DNA of 64,000 bases, from NCBI RefSeq assembly GCF_010894435.1, contig NZ_JAAIXZ010000016.1, forward strand, positions 124,001 to 188,000, written 5' to 3'. Position numbers and translations under genes: made by a program. The notes below the pieces were generated by a model. It had not been told where the DNA came from. It did no database searches and was given only the letters and a program-made list of their open reading frames with translations. Below, piece after piece: positions 29,101 to 41,694 of the stretch (within the stretch, counting starts at the first letter, position 1; each line of letters begins with the position of its first letter). The DNA comes from Pyxidicoccus trucidator (lineage in GTDB: Bacteria; Myxococcota; Myxococcia; Myxococcales; Myxococcaceae).

Positions 29101-29659
29101 GGTGCAGGCCACGCTGACCGGGCGGCACGCCACACCCGAGCACACTCAGCGCTCCTATCGCATCATCGCCGCGGGACTGCGCGCCAATGCGGAGACCCGA
29201 CTCGGGCACCTGGACGCCGCCGCCCGCGCGCTCGAGCAGCGGCGGGCGCTGTTCCTGGAACAGTTCGACGAGACGGATCGCGATGAGGACATCGGCGCGG
29301 TGACGCTGGCGGAGCTGCGGCTGGCCGAGAATGCCGTGGACCGCCACGACACGGCGCAGGCGGCCCGCTGGTTGGGCAAGGCCATCGCCCACGCCGACAC
29401 CCTGATGGAGCGCACCCACGCACCGGTCTATGCCGGTCAGCTGAATGCGCTCTGGTTCGCGGCGCAGCTGCACGCGGAAGGGAACACGCAGCTGCCTTTC
29501 GACGTGCCCAAGCGGCTGGCCCAGGCGCACCGCTCCCTCATCGACCAGCGCAATCCCTCCTGGCGTTCATATCTGGCGTGGTTCGAGGTCTATCTGGCGC
29601 TTGGCGCAAACCCGCAAGAAGAGGTCCGGGACGCACTGCTGCTGCCCGCCCAGCCCTGA
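26192..29659 (+). CDS. Exported protein with WD40-like beta-propeller and TPR repeats
   Basis: 1155 residues. GTG start with GGAGAG upstream, overlapping the previous gene by 7 bp. A signal peptide (CFIALAVLIASGARA, cut near residue 22) is followed by a TolB/PD40-type propeller (about 35-330): LVPAGNTLIFASNRNIATEI, WPRVSPDGKHLLYISFR, SPTISPDGRWLVYVP. The remainder is helical repeats, TPR-like in places (RMVEELSEAERQRM; AGRFERALALYDRELPILEA; AYRRLGRQRLDEARADFDL). The combination suggests a periplasmic scaffold. Being third in the YdbH-YdbL operon, it may assist the lipid-transport bridge, but no direct motif shows this. The C-terminus is EVRDALLLPAQP. Confidence 0.88.
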   Translation: MLTPRGRCFIALAVLIASGARAQDDENEGGLRTLSRLTVGAGDHFLGQLVPAGNTLIFASNRNIATEIYSQDLDEGRERRLFDEGADVTWPRVSPDGKHLLYISFRNQASGQLCVRELPGAEGRRCLEAETSALQAEWIDASHIALVSRASIQGDLHLSRVSVKDELSASPLLERNLTSPTISPDGRWLVYVPIERSVQQVGPGFAARASAHLEAVRLDRPGEPPIPLALDLPGQTGQPVFALDGRSLYVVQFFTDSNGDGVIDASDSGVLFRVPFAAEREDAPQLAAASSPDQLTSVSWSCEYPAPAAESLIATCSRDQSLDVYQLPLDGQVPSTWDVPRLNEELGMAGRRADLLLLYRQRLLREARPKPRRLLMMRLSQLHLTFEDFGAAEFYARQMRSVDDPATAGLAEPLRILIDHRRAMKERDRGRMVEELSEAERQRMAALDPAAAPSPPSAVFQHVVRSELAEAAGDFTRARQELEAAQVTDTTTRAVLEAWFERADALYRKLDDREALVEAGRRLSMNKAFRDDDQLDFARAAVRALYRGRPYDEADAAMARALASAPAGSAYAFALELGRHVNALHDERPPRPVREALIAFYHRQEDPLRRRALVQDAVERAAGLGADGVLEALATVYVDDAPPGTEERRRAERLFRRTMMGRAYRRLGRQRLDEARADFDLVTQRTGNLESAVESMSLRLRADVSPEVVEKEVTTTSASMARPLAHFVKAYLTARQLPKLEDRAHHAQAVASAVKELRAAWKELKNQRAMHALYGSIQHEDFLRGHEPSAAERANRHYLIALDLVRNNVRYRAMLLGALGLLHTQVGNFHIALGYLEQRDKLPYVDNAAGLAVSLARARALLHVGREEEAAQAAEKALAMVDASPKLARFATLAVDRAALYNLAAGRFERALALYDRELPILEASPQDSEGLRNRLVVRLARCAAELGAGKTQRAVEDLDIVDRELATPAVQATLTGRHATPEHTQRSYRIIAAGLRANAETRLGHLDAAARALEQRRALFLEQFDETDRDEDIGAVTLAELRLAENAVDRHDTAQAARWLGKAIAHADTLMERTHAPVYAGQLNALWFAAQLHAEGNTQLPFDVPKRLAQAHRSLIDQRNPSWRSYLAWFEVYLALGANPQEEVRDALLLPAQP

Positions 29660-29736
29660 AAAAATACCCTGTGGCCATTTACAGGTACCACGGGTCTCTC
29701 TGTTCTCAGCGGACGCGGCGGGAGTCGTCCGCCCCG

Positions 29737-29757
29737 ACGCTCCCATGCCGGGAGCGT
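29737..29757 (+). repeat. 8-bp perfect inverted repeat after the propeller operon
   Basis: ACGCTCCC/GGGAGCGT with a 5-nt loop, 78 bp after the operon end and 36 bp before the M57 gene start. It may be a terminator of the operon or a leader hairpin of the protease gene. Confidence 0.4.
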
Positions 29758-29792
29758 GGGAAGAACCGCATCAGGACCCGAGGGAAAACAAC

Positions 29793-30563
29793 ATGTTCAA
29801 GAGAGCGGCAGTCCTCGCGGTGAGCTGTGGCGCTGTGCTGTTTGGCTGCGGTAGCGAGCAGTTGCCCGAGAACGAGGAGATCGTCTCCAACCTGATCGAG
29901 GCGGGGTTCACGGCCAACGACATCATGGTCGTCGACGACGCCGTGTACGTGGGCCGCGACGCCCATGTGACGCTCGAGGCGTCCCGCGAGATGCTCCAGC
30001 CCGGCACGGAGAGCGCGGAGCAGTACAGGACGACCAACCTCGTCAGCACCAGCGTGACGAAGATCTGCATCAATCCCACCTCCCAGTTCAACAGCTACAC
30101 CCGCCTCAGCCAGGGGCTCGATGCGGCCATCGAGAACTACAACAGCCAGGGGCTCTCCTTCACCATGGTGCGGGGACCGGCCACCGGCTGCAGCGCGAAC
30201 ATCGCCGCGAAGACCACGAGCGGCACCGGCGGCTCCGCTGGCTTCCCCAAGGGCGGCAAGCCCTACGGAACCATCAACATCGGCACCGGGCTGAACACCT
30301 ACAGCGTTGACGTGAACGAGCACGTCATCACCCACGAGCTGGGCCACACCATCGGCTTCCGCCACTCGGACTACTACGACCGCTCCATCAGCTGCGGCGG
30401 CTCGGCCGCCAACGAAGGCGCCTCCAACGTGGGGGCCATCCACATCCCCGGGACGCCGACCACGGCCAATGTGGGCGGGTCGATCATGAACTCCTGCTTC
30501 CGGTCGTCCGAGAGCGGCGAGTGGAGCAGCTCTGACCGCACCGCGCTGAACGCCCTCTACTGA
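29793..30563 (+). CDS. M57-type zinc metalloprotease lipoprotein (HEIGH-type)
   Basis: 256 residues. Start ATG with GAGGGAAA upstream. The lipobox is LFGC (Cys-19). A propeptide-like segment (about 20-85: EIVSNLIEAGFTANDIMVVD) is followed by the catalytic domain. The extended zinc motif HELGHTIGFRH gives His-181, Glu-182, His-185 and His-191, with a Met-turn-like SIMNSCF near the C-terminus. The family (dual-action HEIGH metallopeptidases, myxobacterial protease B relatives) degrades extracellular protein. Cys residues 92, 133 and those near 205 and 228 may form disulphides. Monocistronic; probably surface or secreted and used in predation or nutrient release (inference). Confidence 0.92.
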   Translation: MFKRAAVLAVSCGAVLFGCGSEQLPENEEIVSNLIEAGFTANDIMVVDDAVYVGRDAHVTLEASREMLQPGTESAEQYRTTNLVSTSVTKICINPTSQFNSYTRLSQGLDAAIENYNSQGLSFTMVRGPATGCSANIAAKTTSGTGGSAGFPKGGKPYGTINIGTGLNTYSVDVNEHVITHELGHTIGFRHSDYYDRSISCGGSAANEGASNVGAIHIPGTPTTANVGGSIMNSCFRSSESGEWSSSDRTALNALY

Positions 30564-31896: not shown

Positions 31897-31942
31897 CCGC
31901 CCTCGGATGATGGACACCTCCCGACGCACCGAGGTGGCTCTG

Positions 31943-32515
31943 ATGAAACCTGTCGCTCGCGCCGTGCTGTGCGGTCTCCTGTTGCTGGCCGTCCCCACCG
32001 TTGCGCTGGCGGAGGCCGGCACCGGGTCGAGTGTCCTCACCGGAACGGTCATCGACAGCGAGAGCCGGCTGCCCGTCGCCGAGGTCGTCGTGGTCGCGAC
32101 CTCGCCCGCTCTTCCGGATGAGCGGACGGCGGTAACGGATGCGAGGGGGAACTACCTCATTCCCAGACTGCCACCGGGTGGCTACACGCTCCGATTCGAA
32201 AGGGAGCTGTATGTGTCTCACGTCCGGGCGGACATCCAGCTGCGCGAGAAGCGCACGCTCCGCGTCACGGCGGAGCTGGTTCTCGAGGCACGCAGGGAAG
32301 AGGCCGCCTACTTGGGCCTCCAGCCCATCACCGACGTGGGCGCCACGAGCACAAGTGTCACCGTGGACGAGGAGTTCCTCCGGCGCATTGCCATGGCACG
32401 GCCCTCCCTGGAGGAGGATGCGCCATGCACACCCTGTGAGTCGAGCTTCGTCTGCGCCTGGTGTGAGGCAGGCGGCGCGCCGCGCAGGTCCCTCCAGGGT
32501 GAGCCGGGATTCTGA
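31943..32515 (+). CDS. Exported CarboxypepD regulatory-like protein, likely a truncated TonB-receptor (Oar-like) start
   Basis: 190 residues. I chose the ATG at 31943 with GAGG about 8 bases before it; an ATG at 31907 is an alternative. Signal peptide VLCGLLLLAVPTVALA. Residues about 28-118 form one carboxypeptidase-regulatory beta-sandwich (GSSVLTGTVIDSESRLPVAE, TDARGNYLIPRLPPGGYTL). The following TSTSVTVDEEFLRRIAMARP resembles the entry into a TonB-dependent receptor plug, but the protein stops 40 residues later in a Cys-containing tail instead of a barrel. It is probably a gene trimmed from a receptor that now stands alone. The stop is 7 bp from the convergent histidine kinase gene. Confidence 0.75.
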   Translation: MKPVARAVLCGLLLLAVPTVALAEAGTGSSVLTGTVIDSESRLPVAEVVVVATSPALPDERTAVTDARGNYLIPRLPPGGYTLRFERELYVSHVRADIQLREKRTLRVTAELVLEARREEAAYLGLQPITDVGATSTSVTVDEEFLRRIAMARPSLEEDAPCTPCESSFVCAWCEAGGAPRRSLQGEPGF

Positions 32516-32522
32516 TGCGTGG

Positions 32523-33815
32523 TCACACCGGGAAGGACAACGTGAACCGTGCTCCGCCGAGCTCCGAGCCGAGGGCGGCGACGCTCCCGCCGTGCACTTC
32601 CGCGATACGGCGGACAATCGCGAGGCCAAGCCCGAAGCCTGGGCTCTCCTCTGTACGCCCGTCGTCGAGGCGGTGGAACGGCTCGAAGATCCGCTCCCGC
32701 TCCGCGAGCGGAATTCCCGGCCCATCGTCGTCGACGTGGATGTGAATCGCGCGGCCCTCTCGGGTCAGGCTGATCTGGACCCGTGAACTCGCATACCTCA
32801 AGGCGTTCAGTATCAAGTTCGACGTCGCGCGCTCGACGAGCCGGGCTTCGACGCGAACGACGAGCGGCTCCGCGCAGGGCACAGGGGCGACAATTGCCGC
32901 CCTTCCAGGCACGATGGTGAGAGTCTCGCAGAGCGCGGCGAGGACCGGGCGCACGTCCACCGCAGCCCCGGCCGGTGCGCGGCGCCCCTTCAACCGCACG
33001 TAGGAGAGCAGCTCATCGATGAGCTGCTCGAGTTCCTCGAGACTGCGCTCCACCCGCTCGAACGCGTGTTCGCGCTCGTCGGGCTCGACCGCTTCGCGCG
33101 CGAGCGCAAGGCCGAAGTGCAACCGCTGGGTCGGGGCTCGGAGCTCGTGCGACGTGATGTGGAGGAGCTCTTCTCGCATGGCAATCGAGCGCTGGAGCTC
33201 TTCGCCCATGTGGTTCAGCGCCGTCGAGAGCGCACCAATGACGTCGCGTGAGCCAACCACGGCCCGCGCGTCGAGCTCCCCCTTCCCGAGCGCCTCGGCC
33301 GTTCGCCGCAAGTCCAGGAGCTGCCGGCGGACGGGGCGCAGGAGCGCGAAGACGCCGAGTGAGAGCCCTCCTACGAAGAGGAGGAAGAGCGCGGCGCCGC
33401 GCGCGCCGCCAAGCGGGAACATGAGGGGCAAGGGCCCTACCTGAAGGACGTGCCCGGTCCCTTCGATGCGCGCATAGAGTACGGACTCGAACACGGGGCC
33501 CGCCCGCACGACCTCCCCGCCATCGAGGCGTCCGAAAGCGGCGTCGCCGAGCAGTGCTTCCGCCCGGGGGATGATTGCGACGGGCACCCCGAAGCGCTTC
33601 GACGCCCGCTCGGCGGGACCTCCAAAGTCGTGGTACTGGCTGTAGCGCTCTTCGAACATCTCGGCCATCAACGCGACCGGCACCGCGAAGCTGGCTTCGA
33701 TGTTCCGCGCGAGCTGCGCGTTGATACGAGGGATGACGAACGCCTGGGCGGTGAGGCCGGCGAGCAGCACACCCGCGAAGATGTGGAGATAGACGCGGAG
33801 GAAGAGCCTGTCCAC
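32523..33815 (-). CDS. Sensor histidine kinase, partner of the adjacent OmpR-type regulator
   Basis: 430 residues, GTG start. Two membrane helices (about 9-27 and 138-160) frame a ~110-residue periplasmic sensor. A HAMP follows (about 160-212). The phospho-acceptor His-223 lies in HITSHELRAPTQRL. The ATP-binding lid is complete: NLILNALRYASS (N-box), DDDGPGIP (G1), GFGLGLAIVRRI (G2). The protein is typical of PhoR/RstB-like kinases. The gene starts 3 bp after the response regulator stop, so the two form one operon with the regulator first. The signal is unknown. Confidence 0.93.
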   Translation of the reverse strand: MDRLFLRVYLHIFAGVLLAGLTAQAFVIPRINAQLARNIEASFAVPVALMAEMFEERYSQYHDFGGPAERASKRFGVPVAIIPRAEALLGDAAFGRLDGGEVVRAGPVFESVLYARIEGTGHVLQVGPLPLMFPLGGARGAALFLLFVGGLSLGVFALLRPVRRQLLDLRRTAEALGKGELDARAVVGSRDVIGALSTALNHMGEELQRSIAMREELLHITSHELRAPTQRLHFGLALAREAVEPDEREHAFERVERSLEELEQLIDELLSYVRLKGRRAPAGAAVDVRPVLAALCETLTIVPGRAAIVAPVPCAEPLVVRVEARLVERATSNLILNALRYASSRVQISLTREGRAIHIHVDDDGPGIPLAERERIFEPFHRLDDGRTEESPGFGLGLAIVRRIAEVHGGSVAALGSELGGARFTLSFPV

Positions 33816-33818
33816 GGG

Positions 33819-34532
33819 TCAGCTCACTGTGTAGAGGTAACCGACCCCGCGGACCGTCTTGATGGCATCCGCCTCGCCGGAGGCTTCGCGCAGCTTGTGG
33901 CGAAGCCGGGAGACCCTGAGGTCGACGGAGCGATCGATGTCGTCCTGCTCCACGCCCCGGAGCCGCTGGTACATGAGCTGCCGGCTCACGACCTGTCCCG
34001 CATGGGCCATGAGCAGGAGGAGCACGTCGAGTTCGCCAGAGGTCAGGTCGAGCTCCTTCCCACGCAGCCAGGCTGTCCGCCGTGTGGAGTCGACCGTGAG
34101 CTCGCCGACGCGAAGGGGCGTGCCATCCGGCTGGGGGGGCGTGCTCGTGCGGCGCAGGAGCGCGCGCAGCCGAGCAAGGAGCACGCGGGGACGGACCGGC
34201 TTCGGCAGGTAGTCGTCGGCGCCGCTCTCCAGACCCACGACCTCGTCCACCTCGGCGCCACGTCCGGTCAGCATGAGGATCGGGCCCGGATAGGCGCCGC
34301 GCAGCTCACGGCAGACTGCGAAGCCATCCTTGCCGGGGAGCATCACATCGAGCACCACGAGGTCGGGCCGCGTGGCGAGGATCCGCGTCACCGCGCGTTC
34401 GCCGCTGCCTTCGCTCTCGGCGCTGAAACCGTGCAGTCGCAGGTAGTCGGCAATCATTGCCGTGAGTGCCCGGTCGTCGTCCACGATGAAGACGCTCGGT
34501 GCCGACGTGGATGTCTGACTCTTCTTCTCCAT
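33819..34532 (-). CDS. OmpR/PhoB-family response regulator
   Basis: 237 residues. The start is the ATG with GGGAG about 13 bases upstream; a longer frame overlapping the divergent gene's leader is rejected. The receiver domain (about 12-125) has the acidic pair in VFIVDDDRAL, the phosphorylated Asp-62 in VVLDVMLPGKDGF, and the switch/Lys region LTGRGAEVDEVVGLESG..YLPKPV. A winged helix (about 140-235) has GELTVDSTRRTAWLRGKELD and the recognition helix SVDLRVSRLRHKLREA. It is phosphorylated by the kinase just downstream and probably regulates its own operon or nearby genes. Confidence 0.94.
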   Translation of the reverse strand: MEKKSQTSTSAPSVFIVDDDRALTAMIADYLRLHGFSAESEGSGERAVTRILATRPDLVVLDVMLPGKDGFAVCRELRGAYPGPILMLTGRGAEVDEVVGLESGADDYLPKPVRPRVLLARLRALLRRTSTPPQPDGTPLRVGELTVDSTRRTAWLRGKELDLTSGELDVLLLLMAHAGQVVSRQLMYQRLRGVEQDDIDRSVDLRVSRLRHKLREASGEADAIKTVRGVGYLYTVS

Positions 34533-34671
34533 GGACGCCGGTGCTCCCGGATGGAGCATAGCCGAATCGTTGCGAGCACGTCCGCGCCAGCTCCATTTGT
34601 ATCGCTTCGTATCCTCCCCAAAGCCTCGTTGTTCCATGTGCCATCGTCCAGCGCACCCACAGGAGGATGCC

Positions 34672-35793
34672 TTGTCAAAGCAAGCCAGTCGCGAGCGCGT
34701 GATGAGCAGCCCGGCGAAGCCCCAGCCCGCCCCGGAGTGCATACCCACCACGGATGCACTCATCTATGGGGAGACGCTCTACCTCAACAAGGTACGTGGC
34801 GAAGCGCCTCTGTGGCTCTCGGGTGGGCGCAGCGATCAGCAAGCCCAGGTGTACACGCTCGACGGCGAGGGCGGCATGGAGGAGGAGAGCTATCGTTGGA
34901 CCGTGATGAAAGAGCGCGACACCGTGGGCAGCGGGCCCGTGAGCTATGGCGACGCGATCTATCTCAAGGTGGGCGGCAAGGAGCAGCGGTGGCTCTCAGG
35001 CGGCCGCGGCAACGACCAGAAGCTGGTGTGCACGCGCGACGGCGAGGGAGGCTCGAAGGAGGAGAGCTACCGCTGGACCGTGATGCAGGACCTCGACACC
35101 GTGGGCAGCGGCAGCGTCAAGCGAGGGAGTGCCATCTGCCTCAAGGTGGGCGGCAAGGAGCAACGGTGGCTCTCAGGCGGTCGCGACAACGACCAAAAGC
35201 TGGTCTTCACGCTCGACGGCAGGGACGGAAAGGCCAGGGACAGCTACTTCTGGACCACGGAACCGGTGAGCTACTCCCGCTCGTTCGCGGTCTTCGCCGA
35301 GGACTCCCCCGAGACGAAGAGGATGAAAGTGGGAGGAATGCACACGCGCGTGTTCACCCGCGTGGAGGCGCGCTCGCCGGACAACGCCATCCAGCTCGAC
35401 CTTGCCACAGGCATCATCACGCTTCCGCCAGGCACGTACCACATCACCGGATTCTCGACGACGGCCTATCTGTATCCGCCCGACGAGGGCGAGACGCTGG
35501 ATGGGATGATACAGAACAAGAAGCTGGCGAACGGCGGGTACTGCCGGCTGCGGCTCGCCGGAGGTGTTGCGGAGGACATCCCCAACGAGGAGGCCATCGC
35601 CGTCGGCAGCATCAGCACCGCCAACACGATACCCAGTCTGATTGAGACCTATTTCACCACGAACGTCGACGCCCAGATCCTCATGGAACACCAGTCCGGC
35701 AACACGGAGCAGGTCGCGGACGTCGTGCTGCGAGCCAATCCGAACGAGTCGCCCTGGCATGTCTTCGCGCATATCTGCATCTCCCGCTTGTAG
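34672..35793 (+). CDS. Repeat protein with three 59-residue units and a possible C1q/TNF-like C-terminal domain
   Basis: 373 residues. Start TTG with a strong AGGAGG (34661-34666) 5 bases before it; no ATG is as well placed. No signal peptide. Residues about 31-196 hold three copies of a unit with a conserved W-L-S-G-G-R core at Trp-48, Trp-107 and Trp-166 (exact 59-residue spacing), with SYRWTVM blocks at 73-79 and 132-138. The unit shape suggests a beta-trefoil or similar lectin-like fold. The C-terminal ~170 residues (SFAVFAEDSPETKRMKVG...; LPPGTYHITGFSTTAYLY) resemble C1q/TNF-type jelly-roll segments. A sugar-binding role is a guess. Divergent from the two-component operon, which could regulate it. 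Confidence 0.8.
   Translation: MSKQASRERVMSSPAKPQPAPECIPTTDALIYGETLYLNKVRGEAPLWLSGGRSDQQAQVYTLDGEGGMEEESYRWTVMKERDTVGSGPVSYGDAIYLKVGGKEQRWLSGGRGNDQKLVCTRDGEGGSKEESYRWTVMQDLDTVGSGSVKRGSAICLKVGGKEQRWLSGGRDNDQKLVFTLDGRDGKARDSYFWTTEPVSYSRSFAVFAEDSPETKRMKVGGMHTRVFTRVEARSPDNAIQLDLATGIITLPPGTYHITGFSTTAYLYPPDEGETLDGMIQNKKLANGGYCRLRLAGGVAEDIPNEEAIAVGSISTANTIPSLIETYFTTNVDAQILMEHQSGNTEQVADVVLRANPNESPWHVFAHICISRL
34762..35259 (+). repeat. Three 177-bp coding repeats
   Basis: Three in-frame units of 177 bp within the gene above. Units 2 and 3 share nearly identical DNA over the KVGGKEQRWLSGGR codons (from about 34963 and 35140). Confidence 0.8.
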
Positions 35794-35850
35794 GCCCCTG
35801 CCCCGAGGCGCACGGACCCGCGAGACATGATCGGCGGCCGTGGGCCGTGA

Positions 35851-39453: not shown

Positions 39454-41349
39454 CTACGGCCGGCGCGCCTGGCTGTTCAGGTAGTCGGCATGCCACGCCG
39501 CGGGCAGGGCGGCCAGCAGGTCCGCCGGGACGGGCAGGTGCTTCTGCCGCTCCAGGTCCGTCTGCATCCGCGCGTCACCCACCACGAAGCCGTTGGCGAT
39601 GAGCGTGTGCTCCTTCGCGCCCACGTCCACGAGCTCCGCGTCCGTGCCCAGGGTCAGGTTGTAGACCTGTCCCTTGTAGGGCACGCGCTCCACCGCGGTC
39701 AGCGCCGCCTCGCCGTCGCGGGTCAGCAGCACGTCACCCGCTGCGAGCTCACCCGCCGCCACGACGCCGCGGGTGCGGCTCACCATGGGGTGGCGGTTCG
39801 TCACGAGCACGCCGCGGCCCTTGCCTGCCTTCAGGCGCACCAGGGGCTGGGACTCGGTGCCCTTCGTCACGGTGGTCACCGTGAGGGCACGGCCGCCCAC
39901 GTGCGTGAGCACCTGGTCACCTACCTGCACCGACTCCACCGGGACGGACTTCCCATCCGCCCGCAGCACGCGCGTGCCCGCCGCGAGGCAGCTGTTCTTG
40001 AAGTCCAGCACCGCCAGCCGGCGGAAGCCCAGGCGCTTCACCGGGCTGAAGCCGCCACCCGCGCGGGGGCACGTCGCATTCACGGTGGTGAAGGCCTGCA
40101 TCGCCACGTCCTGCTCGTGCCCGAGGCAGTCCGTGCCCAGGTCCATCAGGCCGTTGAAGGGCAGGCTGGAGGCGTCCACGCCCGCGCCCAACGGCAGGCT
40201 GCCCGTGAGCACCACCTGGCCCGGCACCGCCGCGACGTTGGCCACCTTGCAGCGGCCGCCCGCGCTCAGGAGGATGATGCTCACCTCGCTCGTCACCGAC
40301 TGCACGGTGCAGGAGGACGGAAGGCCCGTCACGTAGGTGCCCTGCGCCGGCAGGTACAGCTTGCTGCTGCTGAACGTGCCCGGCGTGGGCCAGTACGCCG
40401 CCGTGTCCGGCGTCCACCGGCGCGCGGTGAGCGACGTCGGCGCATTCACCGCCGCCACGCCCGTGTAGCCGCCCGCGAAGGCGACGACGTTGCCGGCGGT
40501 GTCCTTCTTCGCCAGCGCGTAGTCGCAGTCCATCGCGCCCGTCGCCGAGCCGCGCTCCAGGCAGGTACGGATGGCGTTGCCCGCGAGGTTGCCACCGATG
40601 AGCTCCCTCGGATGGTCGAAGTTCAGGCCTGGGGGCAGCAGCAGCACCGTGGTGTCCGCGGTGGAGTAGAACGTCTCCATGCGGCCGCTGGCCTCGTCAT
40701 AGGCCATGCCCATCGAGTCGTAGAACAGGACCCGGTCCGGCCCCGCGTCCAACACCACGTCCAGCGGGTCCGTCTCCAGCGTCTTGGCGAGGTAGGCCTC
40801 CGTGGCGGTGGTGGCCAGGAGCTGGAACTCCTGACGCTCGGGCGTCGTGGAGTAGGCGTTGAAGTCCACGTACGAATAGTCCGCGCCGCCCGCGCAGGTG
40901 ATGTAGCCCGAGCCCTGGAAGGTCGTCGCGCTGGTGCCATGGGCGACCTCCTCCAGCGGCAACAGGTGGGCGCACCACTCGGCGGTCGTCTGGGCTGCCT
41001 GGACGGTACCGCCGGCCTTCTCCGCGAGCACGCGCTCACGCTGCTGCGCCAGGCTGGAGAACAGCCGGGGCGAGTTGGCCAGGTTGTTGCCGGCCGACTC
41101 CAGGCGCTTCAACACGAAGGCGTATTGCTTCGCGTCGCCCAGGTCGAGCGGCATCTGTGTGCCGGCGTGGTGCTGCTTCCATTCGGCGTACAGCTTCGCC
41201 ATCTGCAGCGAATCCGTGGACCGTTCCTGGCGCACGGCGGCTGGCGGCGTTTCGCGCGCCGGCTCGGCCGTGCAGCCGGCCATCAAGGGAGACGTGAGCG
41301 CCATCGCCGACAGGGCGAGGCGCTTCCAGCGGGAGGTGACAGGGAGCAT
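39454..41349 (-). CDS. Lipoprotein with a C-terminal Hint (intein/Hedgehog-like) domain
   Basis: 631 residues. I chose the ATG at 41349 since it gives a normal signal with lipobox LMAGC; GTG at 41406 has no RBS. The large N-terminal part (about 30-450) is unknown and includes a Cys-containing beta-rich region. A Hint domain starts at Cys-454 (NSCLAAGTRVLRADG): VQVGDQVLTH, block B TNRH (Thr-517, His-520), VAAGELAAGDVLL and a final block with VYNLTLGTDAEL and HTLIANGFVVGD (His-581). The splice Asn expected at the end of an intein is absent and a ~45-residue tail follows, so the family is BIL/PT-Hint-like: self-cleavage at Cys-454, not full splicing, is expected. No toxin domain is recognised. 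Confidence 0.85.
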   Translation of the reverse strand: MLPVTSRWKRLALSAMALTSPLMAGCTAEPARETPPAAVRQERSTDSLQMAKLYAEWKQHHAGTQMPLDLGDAKQYAFVLKRLESAGNNLANSPRLFSSLAQQRERVLAEKAGGTVQAAQTTAEWCAHLLPLEEVAHGTSATTFQGSGYITCAGGADYSYVDFNAYSTTPERQEFQLLATTATEAYLAKTLETDPLDVVLDAGPDRVLFYDSMGMAYDEASGRMETFYSTADTTVLLLPPGLNFDHPRELIGGNLAGNAIRTCLERGSATGAMDCDYALAKKDTAGNVVAFAGGYTGVAAVNAPTSLTARRWTPDTAAYWPTPGTFSSSKLYLPAQGTYVTGLPSSCTVQSVTSEVSIILLSAGGRCKVANVAAVPGQVVLTGSLPLGAGVDASSLPFNGLMDLGTDCLGHEQDVAMQAFTTVNATCPRAGGGFSPVKRLGFRRLAVLDFKNSCLAAGTRVLRADGKSVPVESVQVGDQVLTHVGGRALTVTTVTKGTESQPLVRLKAGKGRGVLVTNRHPMVSRTRGVVAAGELAAGDVLLTRDGEAALTAVERVPYKGQVYNLTLGTDAELVDVGAKEHTLIANGFVVGDARMQTDLERQKHLPVPADLLAALPAAWHADYLNSQARRP

Positions 41350-41694
41350 CGCAGGGGACTCCGGAACCGGAAGCCCCGCCCACCATGGGTCATGGCTCCG
41401 GTTCACTCACAGTGTATTGCAGCAGTATCCAGGTGTCCCCTGAAATCAGGTTTATGAAAGTCACAACCGTGTGGCTGGGATTGGCGCGCTGGCGCGAGGG
41501 ATTGAGACCTTTTTCGGTTACGCCCGGGCGGAACCGTGACGCAGAAGGCCACAAACGGAGGGACGGGGGGGCCGGCCTGCTGGTGACGGTGCGCGCTCCG
41601 GGCCCTGGAGAACGCTCGACCCGACTGGTGTTAGTCTCGTACTCCCCGTGCGGCCCAGGAATGGGGCCAAGCGGTCACCGAGAGGAGTCCGAGC
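41350..41694. other. 345-bp divergent intergenic region
   Basis: Contains the promoters of the Hint lipoprotein (minus) and the small Cys-rich protein (plus). The first ~130 bp are relatively AT-rich, with a small CCTGA-AA-TCAGG repeat at 41439-41450. No gene seen. Confidence 0.5.

Follow-up and report, generated by a model that had tools for sequence, protein, structure and literature searches.

The locus described here is a block of three genes conserved as a unit at positions 32522 to 35830 of the window, by which we mean the whole 64,000-nucleotide stretch of Pyxidicoccus trucidator DNA that was analyzed. A membrane histidine kinase closest to RstB (32523 to 33815, minus strand) and an OmpR-type response regulator closest to RstA (33819 to 34532, minus strand; 237 amino acids from the ATG at 34532) lie divergent from a gene that we call LEC (34672 to 35793, plus strand), which starts at TTG and encodes a three-repeat protein with a jelly-roll-like C-terminal part. 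In translation the LEC frame is open throughout and gives 373 amino acids. The TTG start is supported by an AGGAGG ribosome-binding site at 34661 to 34666 (plus strand), kept in all five carriers of the gene, and by the aligned starts of the four homologues, the codons at the one shared position being TTG, TTG, ATG, TTG, and GTG with the window included; an in-frame ATG lies farther upstream, at 34531, but it overlaps with the regulator's own start codon on the opposite strand. A first, sequence-only reading had described LEC as a protein without a signal peptide, and indeed none of the five proteins has a hydrophobic segment at its N terminus (best 15-residue Kyte-Doolittle mean within residues 1 to 54, at most 0.73). 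No export signal or export system for LEC was found, and no catalytic or pore-forming domain was detected in it by Pfam, PHROG, NCBIfam, or PDB sequence searches.

RstB and RstA are the best NCBIfam models for the kinase and the regulator, but the scores stay below the curated cutoffs (250.6 of 478 bits and 206.9 of 330 bits, respectively); the regulator searches used 33819 to 34538, two codons longer than the gene given above. Between the divergent genes lies a conserved operator-like site, TGTATCGCTTCGTATC (GTATC-N5-GTATC; 34598 to 34613, plus strand), which can be written TGTATC(G/A)CTTCGTATC and carries GTATC twice, 10 bp apart from start to start, a spacing usual for OmpR-family sites. 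In the intergenic alignment, where 53 of 139 columns are invariant overall, the site forms a 17-column run with one change, a length reached by none of 20,000 shuffles (maximum, 16). With the variable base left free, the pattern occurs exactly once in each of the five carrier genomes, between the regulator and LEC, and none of these genomes has a copy with one mismatch. From the sequence we infer that the regulator binds this GTATC-N5-GTATC site. Copies with two mismatches number 14 (1 in G000, 3 in G010, 2 in G013, 2 in G023, and 6 in G026) versus 3 for the reversed control (1 in G000, 2 in G010, and none in the others), so further, weaker targets of the regulator elsewhere in the genome are possible. 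The intergenic region gave no match to a sigma-70-type promoter or a terminator.

LEC, the kinase, and the regulator are each present in the same 5 of the 27 genomes of the genus, and none of them was found in the other 22 (regulator and kinase counted at E ≤ 1e-60). Because the three genes are present together or absent, it is strongly supported that the two-component system, which the earlier reading had already placed divergent to LEC, matters for it. DNA homology with G023 runs from the kinase stop codon to 37 bp past the LEC stop and ends there on both sides; the convergent gene for a CarboxypepD_reg protein (31907 to 32515, plus strand) has its stop 7 bp from that of the kinase, at the point where the homology of the module ends. 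The five carriers present three neighborhoods, namely, the window's own, that of G023 and G010, and that of G013 and G026, and the MFS, LysR, CarboxypepD_reg, ArsR, and AHSA1 neighbors of the window were not found beside the module in the other four carriers over the 11 to 14 kb read. The order is A-B-module in G023 and A-module-B in G010, and G013 differs from G026 by about 3 kb extra on the left. In two related genomes, the module stands on opposite sides of one 2.6-kb block (L037, 1784 to 7657; L038, 3949 to 9867), which encodes a DUF3943 protein and a protein of the endonuclease/exonuclease/phosphatase type. With three neighborhoods among five carriers, the module has moved.

Genomes without the module also have the window's MFS/LysR flank and the flank with glutathione peroxidase seen in G013 and G026, but no empty site with both carrier flanks side by side was found in the stretches read. 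In G004, where LEC, kinase, and regulator were not found, homology to the right flank of G026 begins 20 bp after the G026 LEC stop; the 18 kb read there does not include hflKC. No transposases were seen by eye in the module flanks, from which five proteins were put to Pfam, so that a mobile gene may escape notice. Recent transfer is not needed to account for the distribution, since the identity of the module (92% between the window and G023 and 76% between the window and G013) is similar to or lower than the values for the MFS locus (91% and 86%). Elsewhere in the window, a 650-amino-acid protein (39454 to 41406, minus strand) has an N terminus that by eye is lipoprotein-like and, starting at about residue 473, Hint-type matches that all fall short of the curated cutoffs, and an open reading frame at 29445 to 30563 (plus strand), which we take to resemble M57-type peptidases, has a lipoprotein-like segment and the zinc-protease motif HELGHTIGFRHSD.

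The N-terminal half of LEC is made up of three 59-residue units (34759 to 35280, plus strand; residues about 30 to 203), predicted to form a MIR-like beta-trefoil. Their tryptophans, W48, W107, and W166, lie within WLSGG cores exactly 59 residues apart, a regularity first noted in the window sequence and kept in all five proteins (window and four homologues). The repeats match one another at 66 of 118 positions, compared with at most 21 in 2,000 shuffles, with the best of lags 40 to 79 used for the real sequence and the shuffles alike. In the DNA, three 90-nt copies follow at a spacing of 177 nt, and identity to repeat 2 amounts to 89% for repeat 3 and 62% for repeat 1. The claim that two DNA repeats are almost identical holds for the core of repeats 2 and 3 (45 of 48 nt) but not for the whole unit, in which 33 of 59 residues are shared. 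Recent duplication or homogenization had been proposed, of which the second part stands for some lineages: position-specific features, such as the KRG that opens repeat 3, are common to all five LEC proteins, so the triplication predates their split. Within a core of 42 nt, the window has the same nucleotide in repeats 2 and 3 at 40 sites and G023 does so at 39, and G026 has 40 such agreements between its repeats 1 and 3; comparing orthologous repeats across the two clades gives 24 to 33 agreements, and homogenization is not clear in G010 and G013 (best within-gene match, 34 sites). Gene conversion within lineages would leave such a pattern, and an older triplication, later homogenized in some lineages, appears to be a better reading of the repeats than recent duplication.

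LEC also changes faster than its partners. Over ten pairs, Nei-Gojobori counts give dN/dS values of 0.36 to 0.96 for LEC, 0.17 to 0.27 for the kinase, and 0.08 to 0.17 for the regulator (the last from 177 or 214 codons), those of LEC being two to four times the values of its regulators. For the whole gene LEC stays below 1, and the pair G023-G010 reaches 1.26 (0.149/0.119) when the tail is taken by itself.

Structure prediction bears out the earlier guess at a beta-trefoil in a model of low confidence. The AlphaFold model of LEC, made from the five sequences, has a mean pLDDT of 42, is best at residues 80 to 180, and forms a beta-trefoil at residues 27 to 203. Foldseek returned 44 matches to this trefoil at E ≤ 0.001, headed by the N-terminal domain of the honeybee ryanodine receptor (RyR; 5.5e-5) and including chains of IP3 receptor (IP3R), RyR, SDF2-like, microtubule-doublet, and botulinum-type trefoils. 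The best VIA match was the RyR1 N-terminal domain (Z 16.8 over 147 residues at 2.5 Å); the best 50 matches listed, with Z values of 14.9 to 16.8 over 140 to 171 residues at 2.5 to 3.5 Å, are nearly all RyR, IP3R, SDF2-like, or Pmt MIR chains, and Z gaps below about 1 cannot separate the RyR/IP3R N-terminal trefoils from MIR proper. The two are neighboring Pfam families. The N-terminal part of LEC is thus predicted, at low confidence, to be a MIR-type beta-trefoil, and the proteins with the nearest folds are mostly not classical lectins.

Sequence support for LEC as a MIR protein is slight, and the beta-trefoil fold of MIR is seen in LEC in the predicted low-pLDDT model only. For none of the five LEC proteins was a PF02815 (MIR) match reported at E up to 10 within HMMER's filters, and the same Pfam model does match genuine MIR proteins of the genus. 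A MIR profile built from five genuine MIR domains of the genus recovered 13 SDF2-like and PMT sequences in the PDB (E, 6.7e-37 to 2.9e-12). Against whole LEC it gave a P of 0.034 and an hhalign probability of 1.5% (residues 26 to 214 being the realigned path), with probabilities of 1.5 to 2.6% across comparisons; against the trefoil alone P was 0.018, from a scoring stretch of 11 residues, PVSYGDAIYLK versus PVSHGQIIRLK. Two of 150 column shuffles reached the MIR-LEC score, and the profile scored 21.1, versus 14.5 for the reversed profile and 12.8 for the tail. MIR (PF02815; SDF2 and protein O-mannosyltransferases) and RyR/IP3R N-terminal trefoils resemble LEC in size, in having three internal repeats, and in predicted fold, and MIR-type trefoils share the short in-register profile match, but where MIR repeats have LH(S/T)H, LEC has WL(S/T/K)GG. 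This fingerprint, as given in the available text of PMC7759382, is found in none of the five LEC proteins; the same text reports that Pmt2-MIR binds O-mannosyl peptides at the trefoil sites. Genuine MIR (PF02815) itself occurs in 5 of 189 Myxococcota genomes, all of this genus (L072 at G000:C13:185692-186102, L070, L071, L073, and L074), and in none of 14 control genomes, with the MIR domains joined to an endonuclease/exonuclease/phosphatase domain (two checked with Pfam and three by eye).

The C-terminal tail of LEC (35281 to 35793, plus strand) is all-beta and weakly TNF/C1q-like. When the tail was modeled alone (mean pLDDT, 45), Foldseek placed a CBM16 domain first in the PDB (E 0.093), with an Eph-receptor domain among the first rows and TNF-family chains appearing from rank 9 on; the search of viral proteins gave a best E of 0.053, and a C1q protein and collagen-like proteins were among its rows. 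The best VIA match to this low-confidence model had a Z of 6.7 (104 residues, 3.5 Å), and both searches lie within the range of chance (VIA Z below 8, Foldseek E above 0.05). The structural matches span residues 1 to 145 of the 174 modeled. We regard a TNF/C1q-like jelly-roll as likely, and the jelly-roll proposed earlier is weakly supported: 49 of the best 50 VIA matches listed belong to the TNF family, C1q, or BclA, and the remaining one is a dUTPase, but neither Z (at most 6.7) nor Foldseek E (at least 0.05) sets them apart from chance.

That no described family has such a unit agrees with our searches, as Pfam, PHROG, NCBIfam, and PDB sequence searches gave no credible match and no paper on a beta-trefoil/MIR/superlectin protein of this kind in myxobacteria was found in the open-access library searched. 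LEC matches were obtained in 5 of 100 genomes searched and in 5 of 195 genomes of the phylum (the window's own included in both), all in one genus (5 of 27 there), and the four homologues are 88, 80, 61, and 60% identical to the window protein. Ten stretches in a named genome collection, from which records close to the window's own were possibly left out, fit a pattern, and one of them, from Pyxidicoccus caerfyrddinensis, encodes a relative. Phage and plasmid collections gave chance-level matches, and searches of viral contigs found no relative. The matches that we regard as chance level are Pfam DNA_pol3_tau_4 (E 0.13, or 0.091 in another member), Pfam TRAPPC10 (0.0058) and D8C_UMOD (0.15) in one member each, an NCBIfam proteasome model (0.0074 over 29 residues), PHROG matches at 0.033 and 0.33, and PDB profile matches at E of at least 0.59. 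Also set aside were a short match between the tail and a 192-residue hypothetical protein of a Vibrio phage (E 0.07 to 0.1), a Roseinatronobacter plasmid match (E 0.3), a sixth genome, G025, for the repeat profile (22 residues, E 0.008), and five weak tail matches (E 0.09 to 0.94). Our verdict is that LEC is a real, lineage-restricted family within a regulatory module, with parts of known types in a new combination.

Ricin-type and CBM13 trefoils carry QxW in each repeat. In LEC homologues QxW is found at two trefoil sites in three proteins, at one tail site in another, and nowhere in the fifth, hence never in all three repeats, and there is no Pfam match to this type. Another comparable design is CBM92, which is described in the available text of PMC11039641 as a trivalent beta-trefoil with three repeats and one conserved Trp per subdomain; LEC shares the three repeats with one conserved Trp each and, by prediction, the beta-trefoil. 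The WExF that closes each CBM92 subdomain in that text is present in none of the five LEC proteins, and the Trp spacing is 59 in LEC versus 42 in CpCBM92A (W481, W523, and W565). According to the same text, such Trp-based trivalent trefoils bind beta-glucan, and one of the CBM92 domains studied comes from P. caerfyrddinensis. For the tail, the likely parallel is the TNF-like jelly-roll of BC2L-C, the Burkholderia cenocepacia superlectin, and of Photorhabdus PLTL, which in BC2L-C is paired with a second lectin domain (PMC3164656 and PMC12914763, as far as their available text goes). The order differs, as the TNF-like part of BC2L-C is N-terminal and is followed by a C-terminal domain that binds mannose/heptose, whereas in LEC the predicted trefoil comes first and the jelly-roll-like part second, and no PDB chain matches the LEC sequence credibly. 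BC2L-C is surface located although it lacks typical secretion sequences (available text of PMC3164656), and a role in symbiosis with nematodes has been suggested for the TNF-like lectin of Photorhabdus (available text of PMC12914763). Within the same bacterial group, MBHA, the Myxococcus xanthus hemagglutinin of the OAA family, is likewise a lectin with tandem repeats, but its description in the available text of PMC8166773, four repeats of about 66 residues in a beta-barrel, sets it apart. None of these published parallels (Pmt2-MIR, BC2L-C, CBM92, and the TNF-like lectin) is a sequence relative of LEC in the searches made.

With no known sugar-binding motif in LEC and with RyR and IP3R N-terminal domains as the top-ranked folds, the trefoil might bind proteins or lipids rather than sugars, and the module would then be an intracellular scaffold or stress protein with its own two-component switch. 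In ryanodine and IP3 receptors, the N-terminal trefoils take part in contacts between proteins, and the absence of an N-terminal hydrophobic segment would suit a protein that stays inside. We consider this unlikely, though it is the alternative to be taken most seriously; fast change and a narrow, patchy distribution fit external recognition better, and neither observation is decisive.

We favor, tentatively and at somewhat less than an even chance, a three-gene accessory module in which RstB/RstA-like proteins control an exported multivalent agglutinin built from a MIR trefoil and a TNF/C1q-like jelly-roll. The RstB-like sensor kinase and the RstA-like regulator would control at least LEC through the GTATC-N5-GTATC site, and LEC would be produced once the sensor fires and then released without a signal peptide. 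It would be a soluble protein, with an N-terminal MIR-type beta-trefoil bearing one Trp-containing repeat per lobe and a C-terminal half that is probably a TNF/C1q-like oligomerization jelly-roll. With three units per chain and perhaps three chains, such a multivalent agglutinin might cross-link glycans of kin, matrix, or prey, acting like BC2L-C with different parts. Control by the regulator, the jelly-roll trimer, export, and glycan binding are all steps that we infer, and the most economical account is that LEC is a regulated, superlectin-like protein that binds multivalently and leaves the cell without a signal peptide.

The agglutinin might instead be a weapon. Pyxidicoccus and Myxococcus belong to a predatory group, and LEC could be a secreted antagonist, lectin-type toxin, or prey-directed agglutinin, with a sensor that detects prey or grazers; the high dN/dS of the whole gene and of its tail and the different places in which this accessory module sits are in keeping with this. 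LEC lacks a detectable catalytic or pore-forming domain, however, and the conserved block has no extra gene that could give immunity, which leaves this reading distinctly unlikely. It is highly improbable that LEC is a soluble kinase-pathway partner that feeds back on the sensor instead of acting outside, as its co-occurrence with both regulators in 5 of 27 genomes and the sole exact site per genome might suggest, since such a partner should evolve as slowly as the proteins it works with, and LEC does not.

The regulated agglutinin that we favor also has a bolder form, which as a whole is unlikely: a relocating, self-contained myxobacterial lectin module with a dedicated sensor and regulator and one exact site, whose fast-evolving MIR-trefoil/TNF-trimer superlectin, with faces homogenized by gene conversion, would serve recognition of kin or prey.

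If the favored reading is true, the known superlectin designs would gain one in which a MIR-like trefoil from bacteria is linked to a TNF-like trimer. The 3.3-kb module would hold sensor, switch, operator, and effector together, so that a two-component signal and its output could be studied in isolation, and LEC would be a candidate for a protein that serves recognition in bacteria that are both predatory and multicellular.
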